A DNA stretch of 64,000 bases from Gemmata palustris. GTDB lineage: Bacteria > Planctomycetota > Planctomycetia > Gemmatales > Gemmataceae. The first letter of the stretch is position 1; the number at the start of each line of letters is the position of its first letter. Position numbers and translations under genes: made by a program. Where the stretch lies: NCBI RefSeq assembly GCF_017939745.1, contig NZ_JAGKQQ010000001.1, forward strand, positions 682,001 to 746,000, in the 5' to 3' direction. The notes beneath the pieces were generated by a model. That model saw only the letters and a program-made list of their open reading frames with translations. It did no database searches and was not told the origin of the DNA. Shown piece after piece: positions 3,656 to 15,197 of this stretch.

Positions 3656-5050
3656 TCAGTACCGAAGGATGACGTCCATCGCCGCGGTGAACAGGTTCGA
3701 GCTACCATCGAACGGCCGGCTCGAGTTGTTGTGGTCGTACCGCACGGTGGGGCGGAACATCAGCGACCGCGTGGGCGAGTACGCGAGCCCGTAGGTCACT
3801 TCGGTGTACAGGCCCTTCGACCCGGTGCGGAACCCCTTGGTGTCCTCGAACAGTTCCACGCGGAAGTTGCTCGTCACCTGGTCCGTGTGCTTGTAAAGGA
3901 GGTAGTTCGCGGCCCCGTACCACGTCGCCGAGCCGGACGCCCCGCCCTCGCTCGGGAGCGGCGCCCCGTCGATGTGCGAGAACGAGGAGTCGAAGACGTA
4001 GGTCAGCTTGTCGGTGAAGTTGTGCGACACCTGGAAGTTGTACACGTTGTAGAACGGGTACGAGCCACTGGTCGAGAACCGCGGGTCGGTCGCCATCACG
4101 TTCAACAACGCGGTGGTCTTCCCCTCCTTCGGCGCCCACTTCAACTGGCCGATGTAGGTGGGCTGCGCGACGCCGAAGAAGTTATCCGCCCCCATCACGA
4201 GCCCGTTGCTCACGGTCCAGGTGTCGTTGAGCGGGGTAATCGCCCACGCACCGGTGTGAGTAAAGGGGTTGTACTGGAACAGGTAAGCGCGTTGCAGGAA
4301 CGGCGTTTCGGCACCTTGAACGAGTTCGTACCCGATGTGCGTGGCGAACTTACCGACACGGAGGGTGGTACCCTTCGGCCCGACGTTCGGCAGGAACGCA
4401 TCGACATAGGCCTGGAACAGGTCGACCGGGTAGGCGTCCTTCGCGCCCGGAGCACCGACCCCGTTCTGGTTCGAGAGCAGGCCGCGGGAGATCGAGTACC
4501 GGGCGTCGGTACCGGGCAGAATCCAGTCCGTGCGGAAGCCCAACTGGAACTCGCTCTTGCTCGTGTCAACGGTCTTCTCGATCTTGAGGTAGTTCTGGTT
4601 GAACTGCCAGAAGTCGGAGCGGTCGTTGAACGTCACCGGCTGGTTGCTCCGGTGCGCGGTGCTGGTCGAGTAGTTCCCCTGCAACCAACCGGAGATCGTG
4701 ATCCCGCTCTCCTCGAGCCGCGGGCCGAACCGGGTGGTCGAGAGGATGCGCATCAGAGCGTAGGGCTCCGGGGGCGGCGGTTGGTCGTCTTCCTTCTTTT
4801 CTTCTTCCTTTTTCTCACCGTTGCCGTTCCCGTTCGCGGGGGGCATCCCGGCGGGCGGCATACCCGCAGGAGGCATTCCGGCGGGGGGCATCGGTTTCAC
4901 AGGCACCGGCTGTGCGGCCGGCTGTTGTGCTCCGACAAAGCGGCCCGGGGCTCCCACTTGCGGGACCGGGGGAAGGTAAACACCAGCGGGCGGGGGCGTA
5001 TCCGGGAGCTGGCCGGTGGCGAGGGCGGTAAACAGGATGAGCGAATTCAT
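3656..5050 (-). CDS. Outer-membrane beta-barrel porin (OmpL/BBP2-like)
   Basis: A 464-residue protein: a short hydrophobic N-terminus, a proline-rich linker with four tandem MPPAG units (about residues 54-72), an acidic/Lys-rich stretch (EKKEEEKKEDD), then a beta-barrel of alternating aromatic strands (GITISGWLQGNYST ... TRSLMFRPTVRYDHNN) that ends in an aromatic residue (ILRY), as outer-membrane barrels do. The layout matches the 'putative beta-barrel porin-2' family. A Shine-Dalgarno GGAAGG precedes ATG 5050. It is divergent from amt-glnB, so a role in taking up nitrogen compounds across the outer membrane is a reasonable inference, not proven. Confidence 0.8.
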   Translation of the reverse strand: MNSLILFTALATGQLPDTPPPAGVYLPPVPQVGAPGRFVGAQQPAAQPVPVKPMPPAGMPPAGMPPAGMPPANGNGNGEKKEEEKKEDDQPPPPEPYALMRILSTTRFGPRLEESGITISGWLQGNYSTSTAHRSNQPVTFNDRSDFWQFNQNYLKIEKTVDTSKSEFQLGFRTDWILPGTDARYSISRGLLSNQNGVGAPGAKDAYPVDLFQAYVDAFLPNVGPKGTTLRVGKFATHIGYELVQGAETPFLQRAYLFQYNPFTHTGAWAITPLNDTWTVSNGLVMGADNFFGVAQPTYIGQLKWAPKEGKTTALLNVMATDPRFSTSGSYPFYNVYNFQVSHNFTDKLTYVFDSSFSHIDGAPLPSEGGASGSATWYGAANYLLYKHTDQVTSNFRVELFEDTKGFRTGSKGLYTEVTYGLAYSPTRSLMFRPTVRYDHNNSSRPFDGSSNLFTAAMDVILRY

Positions 5051-5422: not shown

Positions 5423-5438
5423 TGGCACCCGTCCTGCT
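5423..5438 (+). promoter_or_regulatory. Sigma-54 (RpoN) promoter upstream of amt
   Basis: TGGCACCCGTCCTGCT matches the -24/-12 consensus TGGCACG-N4-TTGCW at the critical positions: GG, ten bases, GC. Transcription would start near 5449, leaving a leader of about 84 nt before amt. Confidence 0.6.
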
Positions 5439-5532: not shown

Positions 5533-8046
5533 ATGCAAGTTCGTCGCCTCTTGTTGGCCCTCCTCCTCTTCACGGGCTGCAGTATGATGCCCGGTCTGTG
5601 GGCACCATTGGGAGGGATCGCCTCCGCCCAAGACGAGAAGAAATCTGCAGCCAAGCCCGACTTGGAGGCAGCCGAGAAAGCGATCGCGGATCTGAAGAAG
5701 GCGTTTGAAGCCACACAGAAGGAACTCGCTGAGACGAAGAAAGCCCTCGGCGATCTGAAGACCAGTTCGACCGCCGACACGAAGGCCGCGACCGCGAAGG
5801 TCGATGCGCTCAAGAAGGAAATCGATGCGGCAACGAAATCCGCGACGACCACGAAGGACGAGCTGGCTGCACTCACGGTGAAGGCCAACGCGCTCACCAA
5901 GGAGCTCGAAACCGTCAAAGCCGCTGGGGGTGACCCGAAGGCTGCCGCGGAAAAGCTCGCGGCGATCGAAAAGGGTGCAGAAGAGAGCAAGAAAGCCGCG
6001 GAAGAGATCAAGAAGGCGGCCGAGAAGGGCGTGGCCGATGCCGGCGCTGCTGCAACAACGGGCAAAGAGCGCGGCGACACCGCCTGGATGCTGACCTCCA
6101 GTGCGTTCGTGCTGTTCATGGTGCCGGGTCTGGCGCTCTTCTACGGCGGTATGGTGCGGCGCAAGAACGTGCTGGCCACGATGATGCACAGCATGGCTGC
6201 CCTCGCAGTGGTCGGTGTTTACTGGGTCGCGATTGGGTACGCGATCGCGTTCGGCCCCTCGGTCATCAAAATCGACGTGGCTGGTGTCACGGACGGTGGA
6301 CTGTTCGGGTGGAGCTGGGATCTGTTGTTCCTGAAGGGCATCGAGCCGGGCGCGAAGCTCGGTGGCTACGACATCCCGGTTTACGTTCACGTCATGTTCC
6401 AGGGCATGTTCGCCATCATCACCCCGGCCCTGATTAGTGGGGCGATCGCGGAACGCATTCGGTTCTGGCCGTTCTGCCTCTTCATGGTGCTGTGGGTCAC
6501 GTTCGTGTACTGCCCGCTGGCTCACATGGTTTGGGCGTTCGACTGGTTCGACAACGGTATCCCTCTGGCCAAGCGCGGCGGTGCGGCGATCGGACTCCTC
6601 GGGAAAATGGGCGCGCTCGACTTCGCTGGTGGTACCGTCGTTCACATTGCCGCGGGTATGGCGGGTTTGGCGTGCTGCCTGGTTCTCGGGAAGCGGGCCG
6701 GGTACCCGAAGCAGATCGCGCACCCGAACAGCATGGTGCTGACGCTCTTGGGTGCGGGCCTGCTGTGGTTCGGGTGGTTCGGGTTCAACGGCGGTAGCTC
6801 GGTTCGGGGTGACAGCTTGGCCGGGTCCGCGTTCGCCGCGACCCAAGCTGCTGCTGCTGCCGCCGGGTTGGGCTGGATGTTGGTCGAATGGCTCCACAAG
6901 GGCAAGCCGACCGCGCTGGGCTTGGCGTCCGGTATCGTCGCGGGGCTGGTCGCTGTCACGCCCGCGAGCGGGTTCGTGTACATGTGGGGCGCGGTCCTGA
7001 TCGGGTTGGCCGCGGCCGTTCTCTGTTATCTCGCGGTCGCACTGAAAAACGTGCTCGGGTACGACGACTCGCTCGACGCTTTCGGCGTCCACGGGGTCGG
7101 CGGGTTCGTCGGGGCCATCCTGACCGGGGTGTTCTGCTCCACGCTCGTCAACTCTGCCGGCACCGACGGCCCGTTCGCGTTTTCCGCGCACCGCAGCCGG
7201 TTGGAAGCGCTGAAGAAGGACGAGGGCAAGATGATTAAGGACGCGAAGGCCGAGGCGGACAAGGCCGCTGCCGACGCGAAAGCCAAAGAAACCGAGTCCG
7301 CGACGCAGATCGAAGCGCTGACCAAGGCCAAGGACGAAGCCGAGAAGAAGTTCACCGAAGCGACGATCGGAAAGCGCGAAGCCGAAGCCAAGGCGCTCAC
7401 CGAAGCCAAAGAGAAGCTGAAGGAAGCGACCGACCCGCTGGACAAGCTCAAGGACGAGGCCACGCTGAAGGCCGACGCAGCAAAGAAGATGGAAGACGAT
7501 CAAACCGCGCTGCAAGCGACTGCCGACAAGCAGGACGTCGACGGCAAGTCCGGGCTCTCGCAACTGTTCATCCAGATCAAGGCCGCGGTGTTCTCGGTCG
7601 TGTTCGCGTTCGTGCTGAGTTTGGGTCTGGTGCTCCTCACGCAAGCGATTACGCTCGGGAACTTTAAGACCGATGCGAAGTCGGAGGCCGAGGGCCTGGA
7701 CCGGACGGAGCACGGCGAAGTCGGGTTCGACTTCAGCGGTGCTACGGAATCGGCCACGGTCGTTTCCACCGAACCGCGGGCCGCGAGCGCCCCGCGCGGG
7801 AACGGCCGCTTCGACGTGCAAATCGCCGGCGCCGACTCGAAGGAACTCATGGCGATCTGGTCCGAACTGTGCAAGCCGACCGATGGGGCGCCGGACAAGG
7901 ACTTCATCGCGGTGTACCCGCACGTGACCACGATCCGCGGGACCACGTTCCGGTGCCGTGACGGTGACCCGGCCGCGATCACGAAGCGCCTGGCGTCGCT
8001 GTTCACCCGCCTCGCGAAGAAGCCCGTGACGGCCACGAAAGTGTGA
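5533..8046 (+). CDS. amt: Ammonium transporter (Amt) with two periplasmic coiled-coil regions and a C-terminal extension
   Basis: An 837-residue inner-membrane ammonium channel; a bare Amt core is about 400-430 residues. The order is: signal peptide (cleavage likely after ASA, residue 32); a Lys/Glu/Ala coiled coil, residues 36-180; the Amt core from about residue 185; a second Lys/Glu-rich helical region, about 557-676, inserted between the segments matching TM10 and TM11; TM11 (about 682-705); the conserved GLDRTEHGE cytosolic tail; and an extra domain of about 80 residues with no recognised family. Core signatures are intact: LDFAGGTVVH (His371) and FGVHGVGG (His520), the twin pore histidines. 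By AmtB topology both coiled coils face the periplasm. It probably forms an operon with glnB 119 nt downstream. Confidence 0.92.
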   Translation: MQVRRLLLALLLFTGCSMMPGLWAPLGGIASAQDEKKSAAKPDLEAAEKAIADLKKAFEATQKELAETKKALGDLKTSSTADTKAATAKVDALKKEIDAATKSATTTKDELAALTVKANALTKELETVKAAGGDPKAAAEKLAAIEKGAEESKKAAEEIKKAAEKGVADAGAAATTGKERGDTAWMLTSSAFVLFMVPGLALFYGGMVRRKNVLATMMHSMAALAVVGVYWVAIGYAIAFGPSVIKIDVAGVTDGGLFGWSWDLLFLKGIEPGAKLGGYDIPVYVHVMFQGMFAIITPALISGAIAERIRFWPFCLFMVLWVTFVYCPLAHMVWAFDWFDNGIPLAKRGGAAIGLLGKMGALDFAGGTVVHIAAGMAGLACCLVLGKRAGYPKQIAHPNSMVLTLLGAGLLWFGWFGFNGGSSVRGDSLAGSAFAATQAAAAAAGLGWMLVEWLHKGKPTALGLASGIVAGLVAVTPASGFVYMWGAVLIGLAAAVLCYLAVALKNVLGYDDSLDAFGVHGVGGFVGAILTGVFCSTLVNSAGTDGPFAFSAHRSRLEALKKDEGKMIKDAKAEADKAAADAKAKETESATQIEALTKAKDEAEKKFTEATIGKREAEAKALTEAKEKLKEATDPLDKLKDEATLKADAAKKMEDDQTALQATADKQDVDGKSGLSQLFIQIKAAVFSVVFAFVLSLGLVLLTQAITLGNFKTDAKSEAEGLDRTEHGEVGFDFSGATESATVVSTEPRAASAPRGNGRFDVQIAGADSKELMAIWSELCKPTDGAPDKDFIAVYPHVTTIRGTTFRCRDGDPAAITKRLASLFTRLAKKPVTATKV

Positions 8047-8165: not shown

Positions 8166-8519
8166 ATGAAACTCATTGTTGCGATCATTCGTCCAGAAAA
8201 GCTCGAAGATGTACAGAAGGCGCTCGCGGAGCGCGACGTCTACCTGATGACGGTGAGCGACGTCCGCGGGTGCGGGCGCCAGCGCGGCTACACCGAAGTG
8301 TACCGCACCACGGAAGTGCAAATTCGGCTCATTCCGAAGCTGAAACTGGAGATCGCCGTCAACGAGGCGTTCGTCGAAGCGACGGTCGAAGCCATCATCC
8401 ACGCGGCGCGCACCGGCGATACGGGCACCATCGGCGACGGGAAGATTTTCGTGCTCTCGCTCGAAGATTGCGTTCGCATCCGTACCGGCGAGCGCGGGTC
8501 CGAAGCGATCGGGCCGTGA
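8166..8519 (+). CDS. glnB: PII nitrogen-regulatory protein (GlnB/GlnK type)
   Basis: A 117-residue PII protein that should bind 2-oxoglutarate and ATP/ADP and gate the adjacent Amt. It begins MKLIVAIIRPEKLEDVQ, keeps the T-loop region (GRQRGYTEVYRTTEV) and the C-terminal IGDGKIFV and RIRTGE motifs. Two departures are visible. The position of the uridylylated Tyr51 of E. coli GlnB is Val (RTTEV instead of RGAEY), and the B-loop carries about three extra residues (TGDTGTIGDGK versus TGKIGDGK). Start ATG 8166; the longer frame upstream lacks homology. Genetic linkage to amt is the classic amtB-glnK pairing. Confidence 0.93.
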   Translation: MKLIVAIIRPEKLEDVQKALAERDVYLMTVSDVRGCGRQRGYTEVYRTTEVQIRLIPKLKLEIAVNEAFVEATVEAIIHAARTGDTGTIGDGKIFVLSLEDCVRIRTGERGSEAIGP

Positions 8520-8557: not shown

Positions 8558-8706
8558 GTGTGATTGTAGGGCCGCTTCGCGCGGCAAAGTGCAAGTCATT
8601 AAATCCCATCTGCTTGCATAGTTATCCCAAGTTACCAAGAATACCGGTACTTCCCCTCGGCACGAAAATTTCGTGCCGAAGGGCCATTTTCCGTCCGCGA
8701 CGCGCC

Positions 8707-10908
8707 GTGAATGACATCATCCGCGAGTTCCTGGTCGAAAGCCACGAGAGCCTCGCGCAGCTCGACCTCGACCTCGTCACCCTCGAAAAAGAGCCGGGGG
8801 AACGGGAGACGCTGGCGCGGGTATTCCGCGTCATTCACACGGTAAAGGGCACGGCCGGGTTCCTCGGGCTGGCGAAGCTCCAGGCCGTCGGTCACGCCGG
8901 TGAAACGCTCCTGAGTAAGGTTCGCTCTGGCGTACTCACGTTTAACGCCGACATCGCGACCGCACTGTTGGGTGTGGTGGATGCCGTTCGGAAAATCCTC
9001 GCCGCGCTCGAAGCGAACGAGACCGAGGGCGACGGCGATTATTCCTCAGTCATTCAAGCTCTCGAACGACTCATCCCTGCCACTGCCGCGCGCTCGCTCG
9101 CACATTCGCCGCCCGTAGTCCGAGAGGCTCCAGTAACTCCGCCGCCTTCGCCCCCACCGCCGGGGGGCGTGCCTCCGCCTCCACCCCCTCCGGCCGCACA
9201 AGCGCCGAGTGGGTTGGAAATGCCCCCGCCAGCCCTCAAGCCGAAACTGCCCGCACCAGAATCCGGCGAGGGCCGGGGGCCGGCCGTGTCCGACTCCAGC
9301 ATCCGCGTAGACGTTGGCTTACTCGACAAACTTATGACGCTCGTGGGCGAACTGGTCCTCGCGCGCAACCAGATCGTGCAATACAGCGGGACGCAGGAAG
9401 ATTCCGGGTTTCTGGGAGCGGTTCAGCGGTTGAACGGGCTCACGACGGAACTACAAGCCGGCGTGATGAAAACGCGCATGCAGCCCATCGGGAACGTGTG
9501 GGCGAAGTTCCCGCGGGTCGTGCGCGACCTGGCCATTGCGTGCGGTAAACAGGTTCGACTCGAGATGGACGGTCAGGAAACGGAACTCGATCGCACCATT
9601 ATCGAAGCCATCCGCGACCCGCTCACGCACATCGTCCGCAACGCGATTGACCACGGGATCGAGTTCCCGCGCGCCCGCACCGAGAGCGGGAAGCCGCCCG
9701 AGGGCCGACTGCTGCTCCACGCTTATCACGAGAGCGGCAAGGTCGTCATCGAGATCGGTGACGACGGCGGCGGGATCGACCCGCAACGGGTACGCGACAA
9801 GGCGGTTTCGGCCAAGATCGTTACGCCCGAAGGCGCCGCCCGCATGACCGAAGTGGAGTTATTGAACCTGATCTTCCTGCCGGGGTTCTCGACCACCGAC
9901 CGTGTGACCCACTTCTCCGGGCGCGGCGTGGGCATGGACGTGGTGCGAACCAACGTCGAGAAGATCGGCGGTGTGGTGGACGTGCAGAGCCGACTCGGGC
10001 GCGGCACCACCATCAAAATGAAGATCCCGCTCACGCTCGCGATCGTCCCGGCGCTCACCGTCGTCACCGGCGGGGATCGGTACGCGATCCCACAAGTGAA
10101 CCTGCTCGAACTGGTGAGACTCGAAGCCGATCAGGTTCGCAGTGCGATCGAGTTCGTCCACGGTGCGCCGGTGTACCGGCTCCGCGGGAGCCTGCTTCCA
10201 CTGGTCTACCTCGCACGCGAGCTGCGGGTCGAGTCCCTTCAGCCCCCCGACAGTGAAGTGAACATCGTCATCCTCCAGGCCGACGATCGGCGCTTCGGGC
10301 TGGTCGTTGACGAGATCCGCGACTCCGTCGAGATCGTGGTCAAGCCGCTGCAGAAGCTGCTTAAAGGCGCCGCGGTGTTCGCGGGCGCGACCATCATGGA
10401 CGACGGGCGGGTCGCACTGATCCTCGATGTTGTGGGGCTGGCGCAACGGGCGAACGTGGTTCGCGGGGCGCGCGAACGGGCGCTCGGTAACAGGGGCGCC
10501 GCCACCGGCCCCGAGGCGCGTCAGCTGCTCCTCCTGTTTGCGACCCCGGGCGACGGGCGCGTGGCCGTGCCATTGGACCAAGTTGCGCGCCTCGAGGAGT
10601 TCGACCGTGGTGCCATCGAAACGGTCGGCGGCGCGATCATGGTGCAGTACCGGGGCACGATTTTGCCGCTGCTTCACGCAACCGACGCGGTCCCCCGCGA
10701 TGCGGGCGCCCCGGTTCAGGTCGTGGTGTTCACGGGAGCGGGCGCGCACTTCGGGCTGGTGGTCGAGCGCGTCCTCGACATCGTTGAAAGCCCGGCCGTG
10801 AACCGGTCGAAGGCGGCGCGCCCCGGGGTGCTGTTTAACGCGGTGGTCCACGACCGCATCACCGAGTTCCTCGACGTGGACGCGCTCGTTCAGCAGGCCC
10901 GGGGATGA
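8707..10908 (+). CDS. cheA: Chemotaxis histidine kinase CheA with two CheW-like domains
   Basis: A 733-residue kinase of a chemosensory array. Domains in order: HPt with phospho-accepting His44 (VIHTVKGTAG); a proline-rich linker (about residues 130-180) where the P2 CheY/CheB-binding domain would be expected, but none is visible; a dimerisation segment starting VDVGLLDKLMTLVGELV; an ATPase domain with the N-box HIVRNAIDHGIE and G-boxes (GDDGGGID, GRGVGMDVV); and two consecutive CheW-type domains (about 450-585 and 600-730). GTG 8707 is chosen because it begins the HPt helix directly. First gene of the che operon; cheW follows 49 nt later. Confidence 0.93.
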   Translation: MNDIIREFLVESHESLAQLDLDLVTLEKEPGERETLARVFRVIHTVKGTAGFLGLAKLQAVGHAGETLLSKVRSGVLTFNADIATALLGVVDAVRKILAALEANETEGDGDYSSVIQALERLIPATAARSLAHSPPVVREAPVTPPPSPPPPGGVPPPPPPPAAQAPSGLEMPPPALKPKLPAPESGEGRGPAVSDSSIRVDVGLLDKLMTLVGELVLARNQIVQYSGTQEDSGFLGAVQRLNGLTTELQAGVMKTRMQPIGNVWAKFPRVVRDLAIACGKQVRLEMDGQETELDRTIIEAIRDPLTHIVRNAIDHGIEFPRARTESGKPPEGRLLLHAYHESGKVVIEIGDDGGGIDPQRVRDKAVSAKIVTPEGAARMTEVELLNLIFLPGFSTTDRVTHFSGRGVGMDVVRTNVEKIGGVVDVQSRLGRGTTIKMKIPLTLAIVPALTVVTGGDRYAIPQVNLLELVRLEADQVRSAIEFVHGAPVYRLRGSLLPLVYLARELRVESLQPPDSEVNIVILQADDRRFGLVVDEIRDSVEIVVKPLQKLLKGAAVFAGATIMDDGRVALILDVVGLAQRANVVRGARERALGNRGAATGPEARQLLLLFATPGDGRVAVPLDQVARLEEFDRGAIETVGGAIMVQYRGTILPLLHATDAVPRDAGAPVQVVVFTGAGAHFGLVVERVLDIVESPAVNRSKAARPGVLFNAVVHDRITEFLDVDALVQQARG

Positions 10909-10957
10909 TCGCGCTTTTCCCACAGGGACCGACCGGCGCGAGCGCCCGGAGGACACC

Positions 10958-11389
10958 GTGACCGAGTCGCGCCAGGTTTGCACGTTCTACCTCGACGGGC
11001 ATTATTTCGGCATCGACGTACTGAAGGTGCAAGAGGTGCTCCGCCCCCAGGAAATGACGCGGGTGCCGCTCGCGCCCGCCGCGGTGCGCGGGCTGATTAA
11101 CTTGCGCGGGCGGATCGTGACCGCGATCGACTTGCGGCGCCGACTGGAACTGCCCGACCGCCCGGCGGACCGGCCCCCGGTGAACGTCGTTGTACCGACC
11201 GACGACGGCGCGGTGAGCCTGCTCGTGGACGAGGTCGGGGACGTTCTGGACGTCACGGGGGCCGTTCTCGAACCGGTGCCCGAAACGCTGGTGGGTGCGG
11301 TCCGCGAGCTGATCCGCGGCGCGTACCCGCTCGACGGGCGCTTGCTCCTGGTTCTCGACCCCGCCCGCGTCACCGCCGAGCCGAACTGA
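10958..11389 (+). CDS. cheW: Chemotaxis coupling protein CheW
   Basis: A 143-residue single CheW domain that would bridge the MCP to CheA. Typical elements are [23 protein letters not shown] at the start, [18 protein letters not shown] in the middle, and [14 protein letters not shown]. The start is GTG 10958, with GGAGG about 6 nt upstream. It lies between cheA and the MCP gene (22 nt gap), so the three core array components are encoded together. Confidence 0.93.
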
Positions 11390-11411
11390 GACCCGAACAC
11401 ACGAGTCCGCC

Positions 11412-13394
11412 ATGACCCGCTCCGCTCTCGCGCTACTCACGAACGTTCCGATCGGTCCCCGACTCGTCGGCGGGTTCGTTCTCATTGCCCTGGTCTGTGC
11501 GCTCGTTGGCTACTGGGGCGTTCGCTCGATTAACAAGGTCAACGTGCTGATGACGAACTCCAGCACCAACCTCGTCCCGTCCCTCTACGCGCTCGCGAAG
11601 GTGAGGAGCGGGGTGCTCGCCGCACAGCGGGCCGAGCGCACTAATCTGATGGCGCTGCGGGCCAAAGACGAACCGGTGCGGGCCACGACCGTTTTGGTTA
11701 AAGAGAACGCTTGGCGGTACATCCGCGAGGGGACGGCCGAGTACGAATCCCTACCGATGACCGACCGCGAGAAGCACTTGTGGGCTCAGTTCTTGCCCCG
11801 GTTCGACGAGTGGAAGCGGGATTTTGAGGCCGGGGAGACCGCGGTCCGGGCCGGCGAGTTGGACCGGGCCGAGCGGATCATTTATTCCGCGATCCCGAAC
11901 GCGGGCCGGCTGAACGAGCTGCTCAACGAGCTGATCGAGAACCAGAACGAACAAGCGAAAGTACAGCAAGAACAGGCCGTTGCTTTACACGCGGAGGCAC
12001 GGGCCACTCTTTGGGGCATCAGTGCGGTCGGGGTACTCAGTGCGATTGCGCTGGGCGTGGTACTCACCGTATCGGTGACCCGCCCCCTCAGTCGGGCAAT
12101 GACGGTCCTCGAAGCCGTCGCTAAGGGCGACCTGACTCAACGGGCCGAGATCCGGTCGCGCGACGAGGTCGGCCGCGTCGGTGAGGCACTGGACACCGCC
12201 ATCGGCACGCTCCAGGCGGCGCGCGAGCGGGACGCATATTACGCGGGCCAGATCACGGCCTTCAGCCGGGTCCAGGCGGTGGTCGAATTCGAGTTGGACG
12301 GCACCATCGTGAGCGCCAACCCGAACTTCCTTCACATGATGGGCTACTCTTTGGAAGAGGTCCGCGGGCACCACCACGGCATGTTTGTAGCGGAGGCCGA
12401 GCGCAACAGCCCGGCGTACCGAGATCTCTGGGCGCGCCTGGTCCGCGGGGAATATCAGACGGGCGAGTTCCGGCAGCTCGGCAAGGGCGGCAAGGAAGTC
12501 TGGACCCGGGGGGCGTACTTCCCCATCATCGACTTGAACGGCAAGCCGTACAAGGTTGTCAAGTACGCGACCGACGTAACGCACCTCAAAAAGATCGAAG
12601 CGACCCTGGAACAAACTGTGGAATCGTTGGCCGGTTCTGCCCGCGAGCTGACGGCCGTGAGCCAACAAATGGCGGCGAACGCCGAGGAGACCGCGACCCA
12701 GGCGAACGTCGCGTCCGGTGCCGCCGAGGACGTGAGCGAGCACATCGGCACCGTCGCCGCGGGTACCGAGGAAATGGGCGCCAGTATTAAGGAGATCGCG
12801 AAGAACGCGACCGATGCCGCGAAGGTCGCGACGGCCGCGGTTAAAGTCGCGGAGAGGACCAATATCATGATCGCGAAACTCGGGGAGAGCAGTACGGAAA
12901 TCGGTAACGTGGTGAAGGTCATCACCTCGATCGCCCAACAGACGAACCTCTTGGCACTGAACGCGACCATTGAGGCCGCTCGAGCCGGTGAAGCGGGCAA
13001 GGGGTTCGCGGTCGTCGCCAACGAGGTCAAGGAACTCGCCAAGCAAACCGCCCGCGCGACCGAAGACATTAGCCGTAAGATCGAGGCCATTCAGACCGAC
13101 ACCCGAGGGGCGGTCGAGGCCATTGGCCAGATCGGTAAGATCATTAATCAGATTAACGACATCCAGAACAGCATCGCGTCCGCGGTCGAACAACAAACGG
13201 CCACGACGGGTGAGATGAGCCGCAACGTGGCTGAAGCCGCACACGGGAGTGGGGAAATCGCGCTGAACATCACGGGCGTGGCTCAAGCCGCCCGGAGCAC
13301 GACCGAAGGGGCCAACGACACCAAACTCGCGGCCGACGAACTGGCTCGTATGGCCGTTGGGCTCCAACAGCTCGTTGCGCAGCTCAAGATGTAG
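11412..13394 (+). CDS. Methyl-accepting chemotaxis protein with HAMP and PAS domains
   Basis: A 660-residue transmembrane chemoreceptor. Order: TM1 (about 14-36); an extracytoplasmic helical sensor region (about 40-195, four-helix-bundle type, with the pattern [20 protein letters not shown]); TM2 (about 198-222); HAMP (about 223-275); PAS (about 283-395, with [17 protein letters not shown]); and a long signalling coiled coil with the hairpin tip [18 protein letters not shown]. The PAS domain suggests sensing of redox, oxygen or a small ligand in addition to the periplasmic input, but there is no visible cofactor-specific residue. Its place inside the che operon makes it the likely main receptor of this array. 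Confidence 0.92.
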
Positions 13395-13716
13395 TGGTGC
13401 CGCTGGTTCGTCGGAGCGAGTAGAAGGTACGCACGGCGCTTTTGGAGCGCCTCTGCGGCGCGAAATTTATCACGAGGGCACAGGGCCAGTTCTCTCGTGG
13501 TGGGCGTTTGGACCCTTCCGTTCGCGCCGGCGTACAGCACCCGGAATCGCGTCCTAGTAATCTGAAGCCGCACCCGCGCGGTGATCGGTCCCTGTTCACG
13601 CAACGAACCCGTTCCAAACTGAGTAATTCGGTGCGATGGTTGCAAGATCGTCTGCCCGGTCAGATGGGCAACCGGGACGAGCCACCCACCGGACTTGGTT
13701 TACGGGAGAGTGACGA
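13395..13716. other. Intergenic spacer between MCP and cheY
   Basis: 322 nt with no credible gene. A small stem GGCGC/GCGCC (13436-13452) might act as a weak terminator or mRNA-stability element. The gap suggests cheY-cheB-cheR-cheX may have their own promoter. Confidence 0.4.
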
Positions 13717-14091
13717 ATGCGCGCGATGGTTCTCGACGACTCCCGAACGGTCCGCCTCATTATTGGCAAGATCCTCACGGAAATGGGGATCGAGGTGATC
13801 GAGGCCGGGAACGGGCGCGAGGGCTTGGACCGGATGCGCGCGAACCCCGATCTGGGGCTCGTTCTCGTGGACTGGAACATGCCCGAACTGAACGGGCTCG
13901 AGTTCATCAAGGCCGTGCGCGCGACCCGCGCCTATGACCCGGTCCGGCTCGTGATGGTGACCACGGAGACCGAGCAGGAGCAGGTCGTCCGGGCGCTCGA
14001 TGCGGGGGCCAACGAGTACGTGATGAAGCCCTTCACCAAAGAGATCCTGGTCGCCAAACTGAGCCTCCTCGACGTCTTCGGGGAGTCGTGA
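13717..14091 (+). CDS. cheY: CheY-type single-domain response regulator
   Basis: A 124-residue receiver domain and nothing else. It has the acidic pair LDD (residues 6-8), phospho-acceptor Asp52 (VLVDWNMPELNG), the Thr of VTTET near 82-83 and the conserved Lys104 (VMKPF). Phosphorylated by the CheA encoded upstream, it would carry the output signal. GGGAG lies about 8-10 nt before the ATG. The last 4 nt overlap the start of cheB, implying translational coupling. Confidence 0.92.
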   Translation: MRAMVLDDSRTVRLIIGKILTEMGIEVIEAGNGREGLDRMRANPDLGLVLVDWNMPELNGLEFIKAVRATRAYDPVRLVMVTTETEQEQVVRALDAGANEYVMKPFTKEILVAKLSLLDVFGES

Positions 14092-15197
14092 GCGTGTCCA
14101 AGATCCGCGTCCTCGTCGTGGACGATTCCGCCCTGTTCCGGCGCATGGTCACGGAGGAGCTCTCCGCGGACCCGGCACTGGAAGTCGTGGGCACCGCGGC
14201 CAACGGCAAAATCGCGCTCACCAAACTCTCACAGGTGAAACCCGACGTCGTGCTCCTGGACGTCGAGATGCCGGAACTCGACGGCCTCGCCACCCTCCGC
14301 GAGATCCGCAAGAAAGATCCGCGGCTCCCGGTCATCATGTTCAGCGCGCTCACCGAGCGCGGCGCGACCGAGACCCTCGAGGCGCTCTCGCTGGGCGCGA
14401 CAGAGTACTTCACGAAGCCCGCCGCGACGGGCGGTTTGGGCGACTCGCTCCGCATCATCCGTGACGAACTGATTCCCGAAATTAAAGCGATTTGCGGCTC
14501 CCGGGTGCAACTCGCGCCGCCGGGCCTGCACCGGTCCGCGGGCCTGACACCGCCGAGCACCAGGCGCCCCGGGGCCGGCCCTTCTGGGGCATTCGCGGCG
14601 CTGCCGGCGCGCGTCGATGTCGTCGCGGTCGCGGCCTCGACCGGTGGCCCGAGCGCTCTCACCACTCTGTTCGCGGGCCTCCCAGCGGACCTCGCCGTTC
14701 CAGTGCTTATCGTCCAACACATGCCCCCGGTGTTCACCGGACTGCTGGCCCAACGGCTCTCCGCGCAGAACCCACTGCCGATCGCAGAAGGGCTGGCGGA
14801 CGAACCGCTCGCTCCCGGGCGGGCGTGGCTCGCCCCCGGTGATTATCACATGGGTGTGGAGCGCAACGCGACCGGTGTAAAACTCGTCATCGAGCGCAGC
14901 GCGCAGGAGAACTCGTGCCGCCCGGCCGCCGACGTGCTGTTCCGCTCGGTCGCACGGGTCTACGGGCCGAACGTGCTCGCGGTGGTGCTCACGGGAATGG
15001 GCCAGGACGGGCTGCGCGGGTGCGAAGCGGTGAAGGCGGCCGGCGGGCAGGTCGTCGTACAGGACGAAGCCACATCGGTCGTTTGGGGGATGCCGGGGTT
15101 CGTGGCGCGCGCGGGGCTGGCCGACAAAGTTCTCCCCCTCGCGCTGATCGCGCCCGAGATCGTGCGCCGGCTCCGCGCCGGTCGGGAGGCGCGATGA
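14088..15197 (+). CDS. cheB: Chemotaxis response regulator/methylesterase CheB
   Basis: A 369-residue protein with a receiver domain (VVDDS; phospho-acceptor Asp58 in LLDVEMPELDG), a Pro/Gly-rich linker (about 140-180) and a methylesterase domain. The catalytic triad motifs are intact: Ser in AASTGGP, His in VQHMPP and Asp in LTGMGQDGL. It removes methyl groups from the MCP and is the counterpart of CheR, encoded next. Start is GTG 14088, overlapping the cheY stop by 4 nt; the 3' end overlaps cheR by 4 nt (ATGA). Confidence 0.93.
   Translation: MSVSKIRVLVVDDSALFRRMVTEELSADPALEVVGTAANGKIALTKLSQVKPDVVLLDVEMPELDGLATLREIRKKDPRLPVIMFSALTERGATETLEALSLGATEYFTKPAATGGLGDSLRIIRDELIPEIKAICGSRVQLAPPGLHRSAGLTPPSTRRPGAGPSGAFAALPARVDVVAVAASTGGPSALTTLFAGLPADLAVPVLIVQHMPPVFTGLLAQRLSAQNPLPIAEGLADEPLAPGRAWLAPGDYHMGVERNATGVKLVIERSAQENSCRPAADVLFRSVARVYGPNVLAVVLTGMGQDGLRGCEAVKAAGGQVVVQDEATSVVWGMPGFVARAGLADKVLPLALIAPEIVRRLRAGREAR

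Follow-up and report, generated by a model that had tools for sequence, protein, structure and literature searches.

Predicted periplasmic coiled-coil inserts and an added C-terminal domain in the ammonium channel of a Gemmata genome

The ammonium transporter (Amt) encoded in the window analysed here (64,000 nucleotides of a Gemmata palustris contig) carries, additionally to its channel core, two long inserts with coiled-coil character (one before the first transmembrane helix, TM1, and one between TM10 and TM11) and a new domain at its C-terminus. Few membrane proteins are as uniform as the Amt channels, and we found no published account of such inserts in the open-access literature. The conserved periplasmic rod and the new inner-face domain represent an elaboration of this well-known channel that could lock the trimer or cross the envelope. 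The reading that we favour, and to which we give a probability of about one half, is that the N-terminal coil and the TM10-TM11 hairpin would together form a periplasmic coiled-coil crown clasping the Amt trimer.

The amt reading frame extends from an ATG at 5533 to a stop codon at 8046 and encodes 837 amino acids, in which the parts in common with E. coli AmtB are the following:

5533-5628, + strand: signal peptide (residues 1-32), a hydrophobic stretch followed by an AxA motif, with likely cleavage between ASA and Q
6067-7143, + strand: channel core TM1-TM10 (residues 179-537), placed by Pfam and NCBIfam matches, the AmtB alignment, invariant columns and a fold match
7558-7650, + strand: TM11 (residues 676-706), placed by the AlphaFold2 model and the second HMMER stretch against AmtB
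7651-7734, + strand: canonical Amt C-terminal region (residues 707-734, EGLDRTEHGEVGFDF), placed by alignment, whose counterpart in AmtB is the P-II contact element

Two stretches of the protein match the Pfam family PF00909 (Ammonium_transp), the main one covering residues 184-545 (E 2.7e-106), and the score of 356 bits against a cut-off of 23.2 places it in the Amt family; the TIGR00836 (amt) score is 391 bits against a cut-off of 343. In the alignment with E. coli AmtB (E about 1e-75, with a second HMMER stretch at residues 676-740), the Phe gate (F107 and F215) corresponds to F293 and F418, the twin histidines (H168 and H318) to H371 and H520, and W148, D160 and S219 to W334, D363 and S422, and these key channel residues are invariant or almost so in 66 relatives. 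The AlphaFold2 model of the full-length monomer (built from 66 aligned sequences; mean pLDDT 86.9, pTM 0.73) has the 11-TM fold of AmtB and Amt-1, on which the predicted core superposes with target TM-scores as high as 0.93-0.94, the aligned region running across the hairpin and on through TM11. Since the core matches these structures up to and including TM11, the AmtB topology, and with it the periplasmic side of both inserts, is well supported; the Amt core and the periplasmic placement, both put forward in the preliminary description, are thus borne out by the family matches, the retained AmtB channel residues, the signal peptide and the superposition. Judged from its sequence, the reading frame is a genuine Amt and the sole predicted ammonium channel of the genome, given that no second Amt was found in this 9.2-Mb Gemmata-type genome (3 contigs).

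At the N-terminus, the model shows a helix at residues 2-17, in the signal peptide, and nearly every Amt relative has a signal-like start. The signal peptide contains a cysteine (Cys16, 5578-5580) in a lipobox-like FTGC, which is common, if not strict, in Gemmata relatives. Lipidation of this cysteine is disfavoured, because it is missing in some relatives (e.g. L040 and L042) and the residue preceding it varies to Val or Thr (as judged by eye), and the sequence makes cleavage by signal peptidase I after ASA the likelier outcome.

The two inserts map as follows:

5629-6066, + strand: N-terminal periplasmic coiled-coil extension (residues 33-178), from the coil scan, shuffles, AlphaFold2, dN/dS and the lengths in relatives
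7171-7359, + strand: ascending arm of the TM10-TM11 hairpin (residues 547-609), from AlphaFold2 (pLDDT 95-98), the coil scan and paired indels
7360-7377, + strand: hairpin tip ATIGKR (residues 610-615), from the Pro/Gly breaker at the tip in relatives and AlphaFold2
7366-7542, + strand: descending arm of the hairpin (residues 612-670), from AlphaFold2 and paired indels

The first adds about 146 residues between the signal peptide and TM1, and the second lengthens the TM10-TM11 loop to 139 residues (compared with 7-21 in outgroups), that is, by about 120, in good agreement with the roughly 150 and 120 residues of Lys/Glu/Ala heptad-like sequence originally reported. A COILS-type scan, whose matrix gave the right result for GCN4, tropomyosin and myoglobin, calls coil at residues 30-78, 84-131, 137-174 and 551-656, that is, in both inserts, although such a scan cannot tell coiled coils from single charged helices (a myosin-10 control scored high too). 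The heptad signal exceeds that of composition-matched shuffles in the N-terminal part (z 6.3) and in the loop (z 4.0), with neither value reached by any of the 300 shuffles.

Both inserts are present and in frame in close relatives (66-86% protein identity), and their recurrence, with the frame intact, in dozens of independent genomes rules out an assembly artefact. No tandem DNA repeats were found within the sequence of either insert, and repeat slippage was rejected as their origin. Pairwise dN/dS values are 0.06-0.37 for the hairpin and 0.11-0.51 for the N-terminal extension (in the pairs where they could be computed, distant pairs being affected by synonymous saturation), indicating that the inserts evolve under purifying selection across dozens of Gemmataceae genomes. 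Together, the dN/dS values and the lack of tandem repeats argue against junk expansion or assembly error.

Particularly clear is the architecture of the hairpin in the model, where the TM10-TM11 insert folds into one helix at 547-609 and another at 612-670, joined by a turn at 610-611, with a pLDDT of 95-98, a value to be read with the inclination of AlphaFold2 to render Lys/Glu/Ala-rich stretches as confident helices. The same arrangement emerges from the relatives, in a loop alignment built without structural input: between loops of 139 to 147 residues and one of 113, the gap splits into 16-18 residues in the first arm and 14 in the second, flanking the tip. Across 28 relatives (with tips chosen by eye), the lengths of the two arms are correlated (r 0.82), and the tip keeps a Pro/Gly breaker (e.g. 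APVGKR, AEPGKR, GTPGKR or AKPEGK). The antiparallel helices, turn and heptads of a coiled-coil hairpin are therefore all present at the level of prediction. The preliminary description had proposed that the loop folds back as a helical hairpin, to be abandoned in the event of disorder, a cytosolic position or absence from relatives, and for the hairpin none of these was encountered.

A sceptical reading of these data is that a low-complexity Lys/Glu/Ala helix has expanded almost neutrally because the loop tolerates it, serving no particular purpose other than solubility. The simple composition of the inserts, their faster divergence compared with the core and the spread of loop lengths in the clade (48 to 203 residues) would fit such an expansion, but dN/dS values well below 1, a heptad order exceeding what composition gives, paired changes in the arms, a conserved tip and ends, and the maintenance of the insert throughout the clade all go against it, and we consider it unlikely. 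Another proposal, that the charged rods work as an electrostatic funnel concentrating ammonium at the pore mouth, has a precedent in the recruitment by charge proposed for the periplasmic surfaces of marine Amts (PMC9277239). The net charges are, nevertheless, +1 for the N-terminal extension and -4 for the loop (-6 to +4 for hairpins across the family), and this near-neutrality makes a funnel very improbable.

The N-terminal extension is less uniformly defined. AlphaFold2 predicts helices at residues 44-74, 82-102, 108-130 and from 135 onward into TM1, with breaks at 75-81, 103-107 and 131-134. The long N-terminal stalk originally envisaged is thus partly retained: residues 135-194 are modelled as a single helix continuous with TM1, so that its inner part (135-178) stands, whereas the outer helices (44-130) reach a pLDDT of only 51-72.

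For the history of these elements we extracted 83 distinct Amt proteins, in which N-terminal lengths are approximate, owing to uncertain start codons in some relatives. The TM10-TM11 loop has at least 80 residues in 32 of the 83, and 23 of these 32 also have at least 120 residues before TM1. The long loops all group together in a core-based tree, in a single clade that also holds a subgroup with loops of 48-50 residues, compared with 12-33 residues in the remaining Gemmataceae. The hairpin has, therefore, a single-clade origin, and the N-terminal coil mostly accompanies it: the numbers of N-terminal and loop coil residues are correlated across the family (Spearman 0.69), and independent contrasts give r 0.31 (sign-flip p 0.016). 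Several relatives (L052, L047, L049 and L073) combine a long hairpin with a short N-terminus, which indicates that the hairpin does not require the coil.

It is on these grounds, and on the comparison with the fungal transporter Mep2, that we favour the crown. In the Mep2 structures, adjacent subunits touch through the N-terminus of one and the TM10-TM11 loop (ECL5) of the other, an arrangement that enlarges the vestibule (PMC4852598); the elements making this cross-subunit contact are precisely the two that are enlarged here. In the proposed mechanism, the TM10-TM11 loop would form an antiparallel two-helix rod of about 9 nm (a rise of 0.15 nm for each of some 60 residues in an arm), while the N-terminus would form a coiled coil, continuous through its last helix with TM1, that most likely packs on the hairpin of the neighbouring subunit, as in Mep2. 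The trimer so clasped would carry a tower over its three pore mouths, which may stabilise the channel and set its spacing in a periplasm as wide as that of planctomycetes, and might possibly serve as a docking site. Counting against the crown are the low confidence of the outer N-terminal helices, the long hairpins that occur with a short N-terminus, and the normal growth of yeast with a Mep2 lacking its N-terminus (PMC4852598).

On the inner face, the tail after TM11 has 132 residues (25-31 in outgroups), which amounts to about 105 extra residues past the usual C-terminal region, and most of these belong to a separate domain:

7801-8043, + strand: cytoplasmic C-terminal domain (residues 757-837), with a ferredoxin-like order of strands and helices and no Pfam family

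Predicted alone, this domain has the order strand-helix-helix-strand-strand-helix-strand, with a pLDDT of 78-89 in its folded part (89-97 in the full AlphaFold2 model). Its description as novel holds, since neither Pfam nor a sequence search of the PDB gave a significant match and the structural matches are to a generic ferredoxin-like fold: Foldseek returned weak ferredoxin-like matches, none with E below 0.001 (among them PII-like proteins and Cas2), and the best VIA-align match (Z 6.0, to AcrB subdomains) lies under the trustworthy level. A fused P-II was rejected, given a profile comparison probability of 0.1 and matches to the generic fold only. The domain is present in 72 of the 83 Amts, where 131-143 residues follow TM11 (in one more sequence the region is N-masked), and is common to every Gemmataceae Amt sampled, whether rods are present or not, indicating that it was gained first and the hairpin later within the family. 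Outside the family it was seen in one other genome only, among 392 drawn from the phylum. In that genome (G615, from another class of the phylum), the Amt (L077:49-1749) has the C-terminal domain and no inserts, and is followed by a P-II gene that lacks Tyr51; the domain may there be either an ancestral trait or the product of a transfer.

The direct connection of the rods to TM1 and TM11, and of TM11 through the C-terminal region to the new domain, raises the possibility of a sensor or transceptor, in which the rods bind a ligand or partner and shift TM1 and TM11, and the C-terminal domain then signals nitrogen status. Amt-based sensors with added cytoplasmic domains are described, one of them in the planctomycete Kuenenia (PMC5764959). 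However, the presence of the domain in Amts with and without rods means that the two are not functionally tied, the family search found no signalling domain (neither a kinase nor another output domain is matched after TM11), and all transport residues are conserved in a genome that has no second Amt to take over transport, so that a sensory role appears doubtful. Because the domain follows directly on the region that contacts P-II, a tuning of P-II docking is the most plausible role for it.

The genes and the promoter around amt also bear on these readings:

3656-5050, - strand: gene for a BBP2 outer-membrane porin (Pfam PF07642), divergent neighbour of amt
5423-5438, + strand: sigma-54-type promoter, TGGCACCCGTCCTGCT, upstream of amt, the best-conserved intergenic block in 12 relatives
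8166-8519, + strand: gene for a P-II protein (GlnB/GlnK-type), directly 3' of amt, identified by Pfam PF00543, alignment and its presence as a neighbour in relatives

A P-II gene lies 3' of amt in nearly all relatives with sufficient sequence. The pairing with amt and the retained Arg47 in the T-loop are those of a GlnK-type P-II, whereas position 51, the tyrosine target of uridylylation, is Val here and non-Tyr in most Gemmataceae copies, and GlnD has only a sub-cut-off match in the genome (24 of 519 bits); control by uridylylation is, therefore, unlikely. The same two observations are a reason to suppose that the ferredoxin-like domain, older than the rods and placed after the P-II-binding region, probably modulates the docking of P-II from the cytoplasmic side. 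In the 480-base gap upstream of amt, conservation among 12 relatives peaks at 5424-5437, where GGCAC-N6-TGC shows the spacing of the -24 and -12 elements of a sigma-54 promoter; the pattern by itself is no rarer in the window than expected by chance, and the assignment is based on its conservation in the 12 relatives. The genome encodes RpoN, and we picture a P-II-linked Amt that would be transcribed from this sigma-54 promoter of the nitrogen-limitation type. The amt-P-II pair is followed by a chemotaxis cluster (8560-15197, with CheA, CheW, an MCP with PAS, a CheY-like protein and CheB), and a gene for a WD40-repeat protein is found at 1830-2909 on the minus strand.

The porin gene is relevant to the longest-reaching reading, in which an N-terminal trimeric stalk acts as a tether, extending from Amt as far as the outer membrane or the peptidoglycan and coupling the channel to BBP2, so that ammonium would pass from porin to channel. 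Some 140 residues of helix could reach about 20 nm if fully extended, the BBP2 gene in the window is the only copy in the genome, and its divergent arrangement with amt recurs in 12 genomes of the genus (when other genera are included, the two genes are divergent and within a few kb of each other in 20 genomes, and co-directional in 2). Ammonium limitation strongly induces a BBP2 porin in Kuenenia, another planctomycete (PMC7438415). Yet BBP2 is equally a neighbour of amt in six of the counted genomes, all with a short hairpin (G029, G030, G060, G062, G066 and G074), and is missing beside several Amts with long inserts (L041, L042, L047, L048 and L051). The porin thus tracks ammonium uptake in general and not the rods, and its linkage was dropped as proof of a stalk; BBP2 at 3656-5050 is likely a nitrogen-uptake porin. 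Considering also that the N-terminal helices are modelled in four pieces with low confidence and that no anchor motif or outer-membrane domain was seen in Amt, we regard the tether as unlikely, and its strongest form, a coiled-coil tower physically joining Amt to the divergently encoded porin as a trans-envelope conduit for ammonium, as more improbable still. Ideas of longer reach, such as porin coupling and the stalk that, in the preliminary description, could extend to partner proteins or the outer membrane, are conceivable but found no specific support here; the crown on the trimer is the reading that we retain.

Comparison with known systems helps to place this channel. E. coli AmtB-GlnK shares with it the 11-TM core, the Phe gate, the twin His, the C-terminal region, the adjoining P-II gene and the signal peptide, but in AmtB the N-terminal coil is missing, the TM10-TM11 loop is short and no domain follows the C-terminal region, and GlnK differs in that the P-II found here lacks Tyr51, with GlnD present only as a match under the cut-off. 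The paired porin gene and the P-II without its uridylylation site point to a nitrogen-uptake module unlike the E. coli textbook case. Extra cytoplasmic C-terminal parts on an Amt core are also found in Ks-Amt5 and Sd-Amt1 (PMC5764959; PDB 6eu6 and 8qj3); the addition in Ks-Amt5 is a histidine kinase, unlike the 80-residue ferredoxin-like domain described here, which bears no enzyme signature. Among planctomycetes, the Kuenenia Amt/Rh protein is enlarged at its N-terminus by a sizeable part that is expected to lie on the outer face, but this is a lectin-like, globular domain and the protein is of the Rh type, with no coiled coil or loop hairpin described. A coiled-coil Amt may also show how transporters of the inner membrane operate where the periplasm is unusually wide, as in Gemmata-type cells. 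The closest parallel is fungal Mep2, with an elaborated N-terminus and an extended ECL5 that are in cross-subunit contact (PMC4852598); the additions in Mep2 amount to 20-25 residues and include no coiled coil, compared with about 146 and 120 helical residues in the Gemmata protein, and a clade that enlarges these very contact elements offers a natural test of their role.
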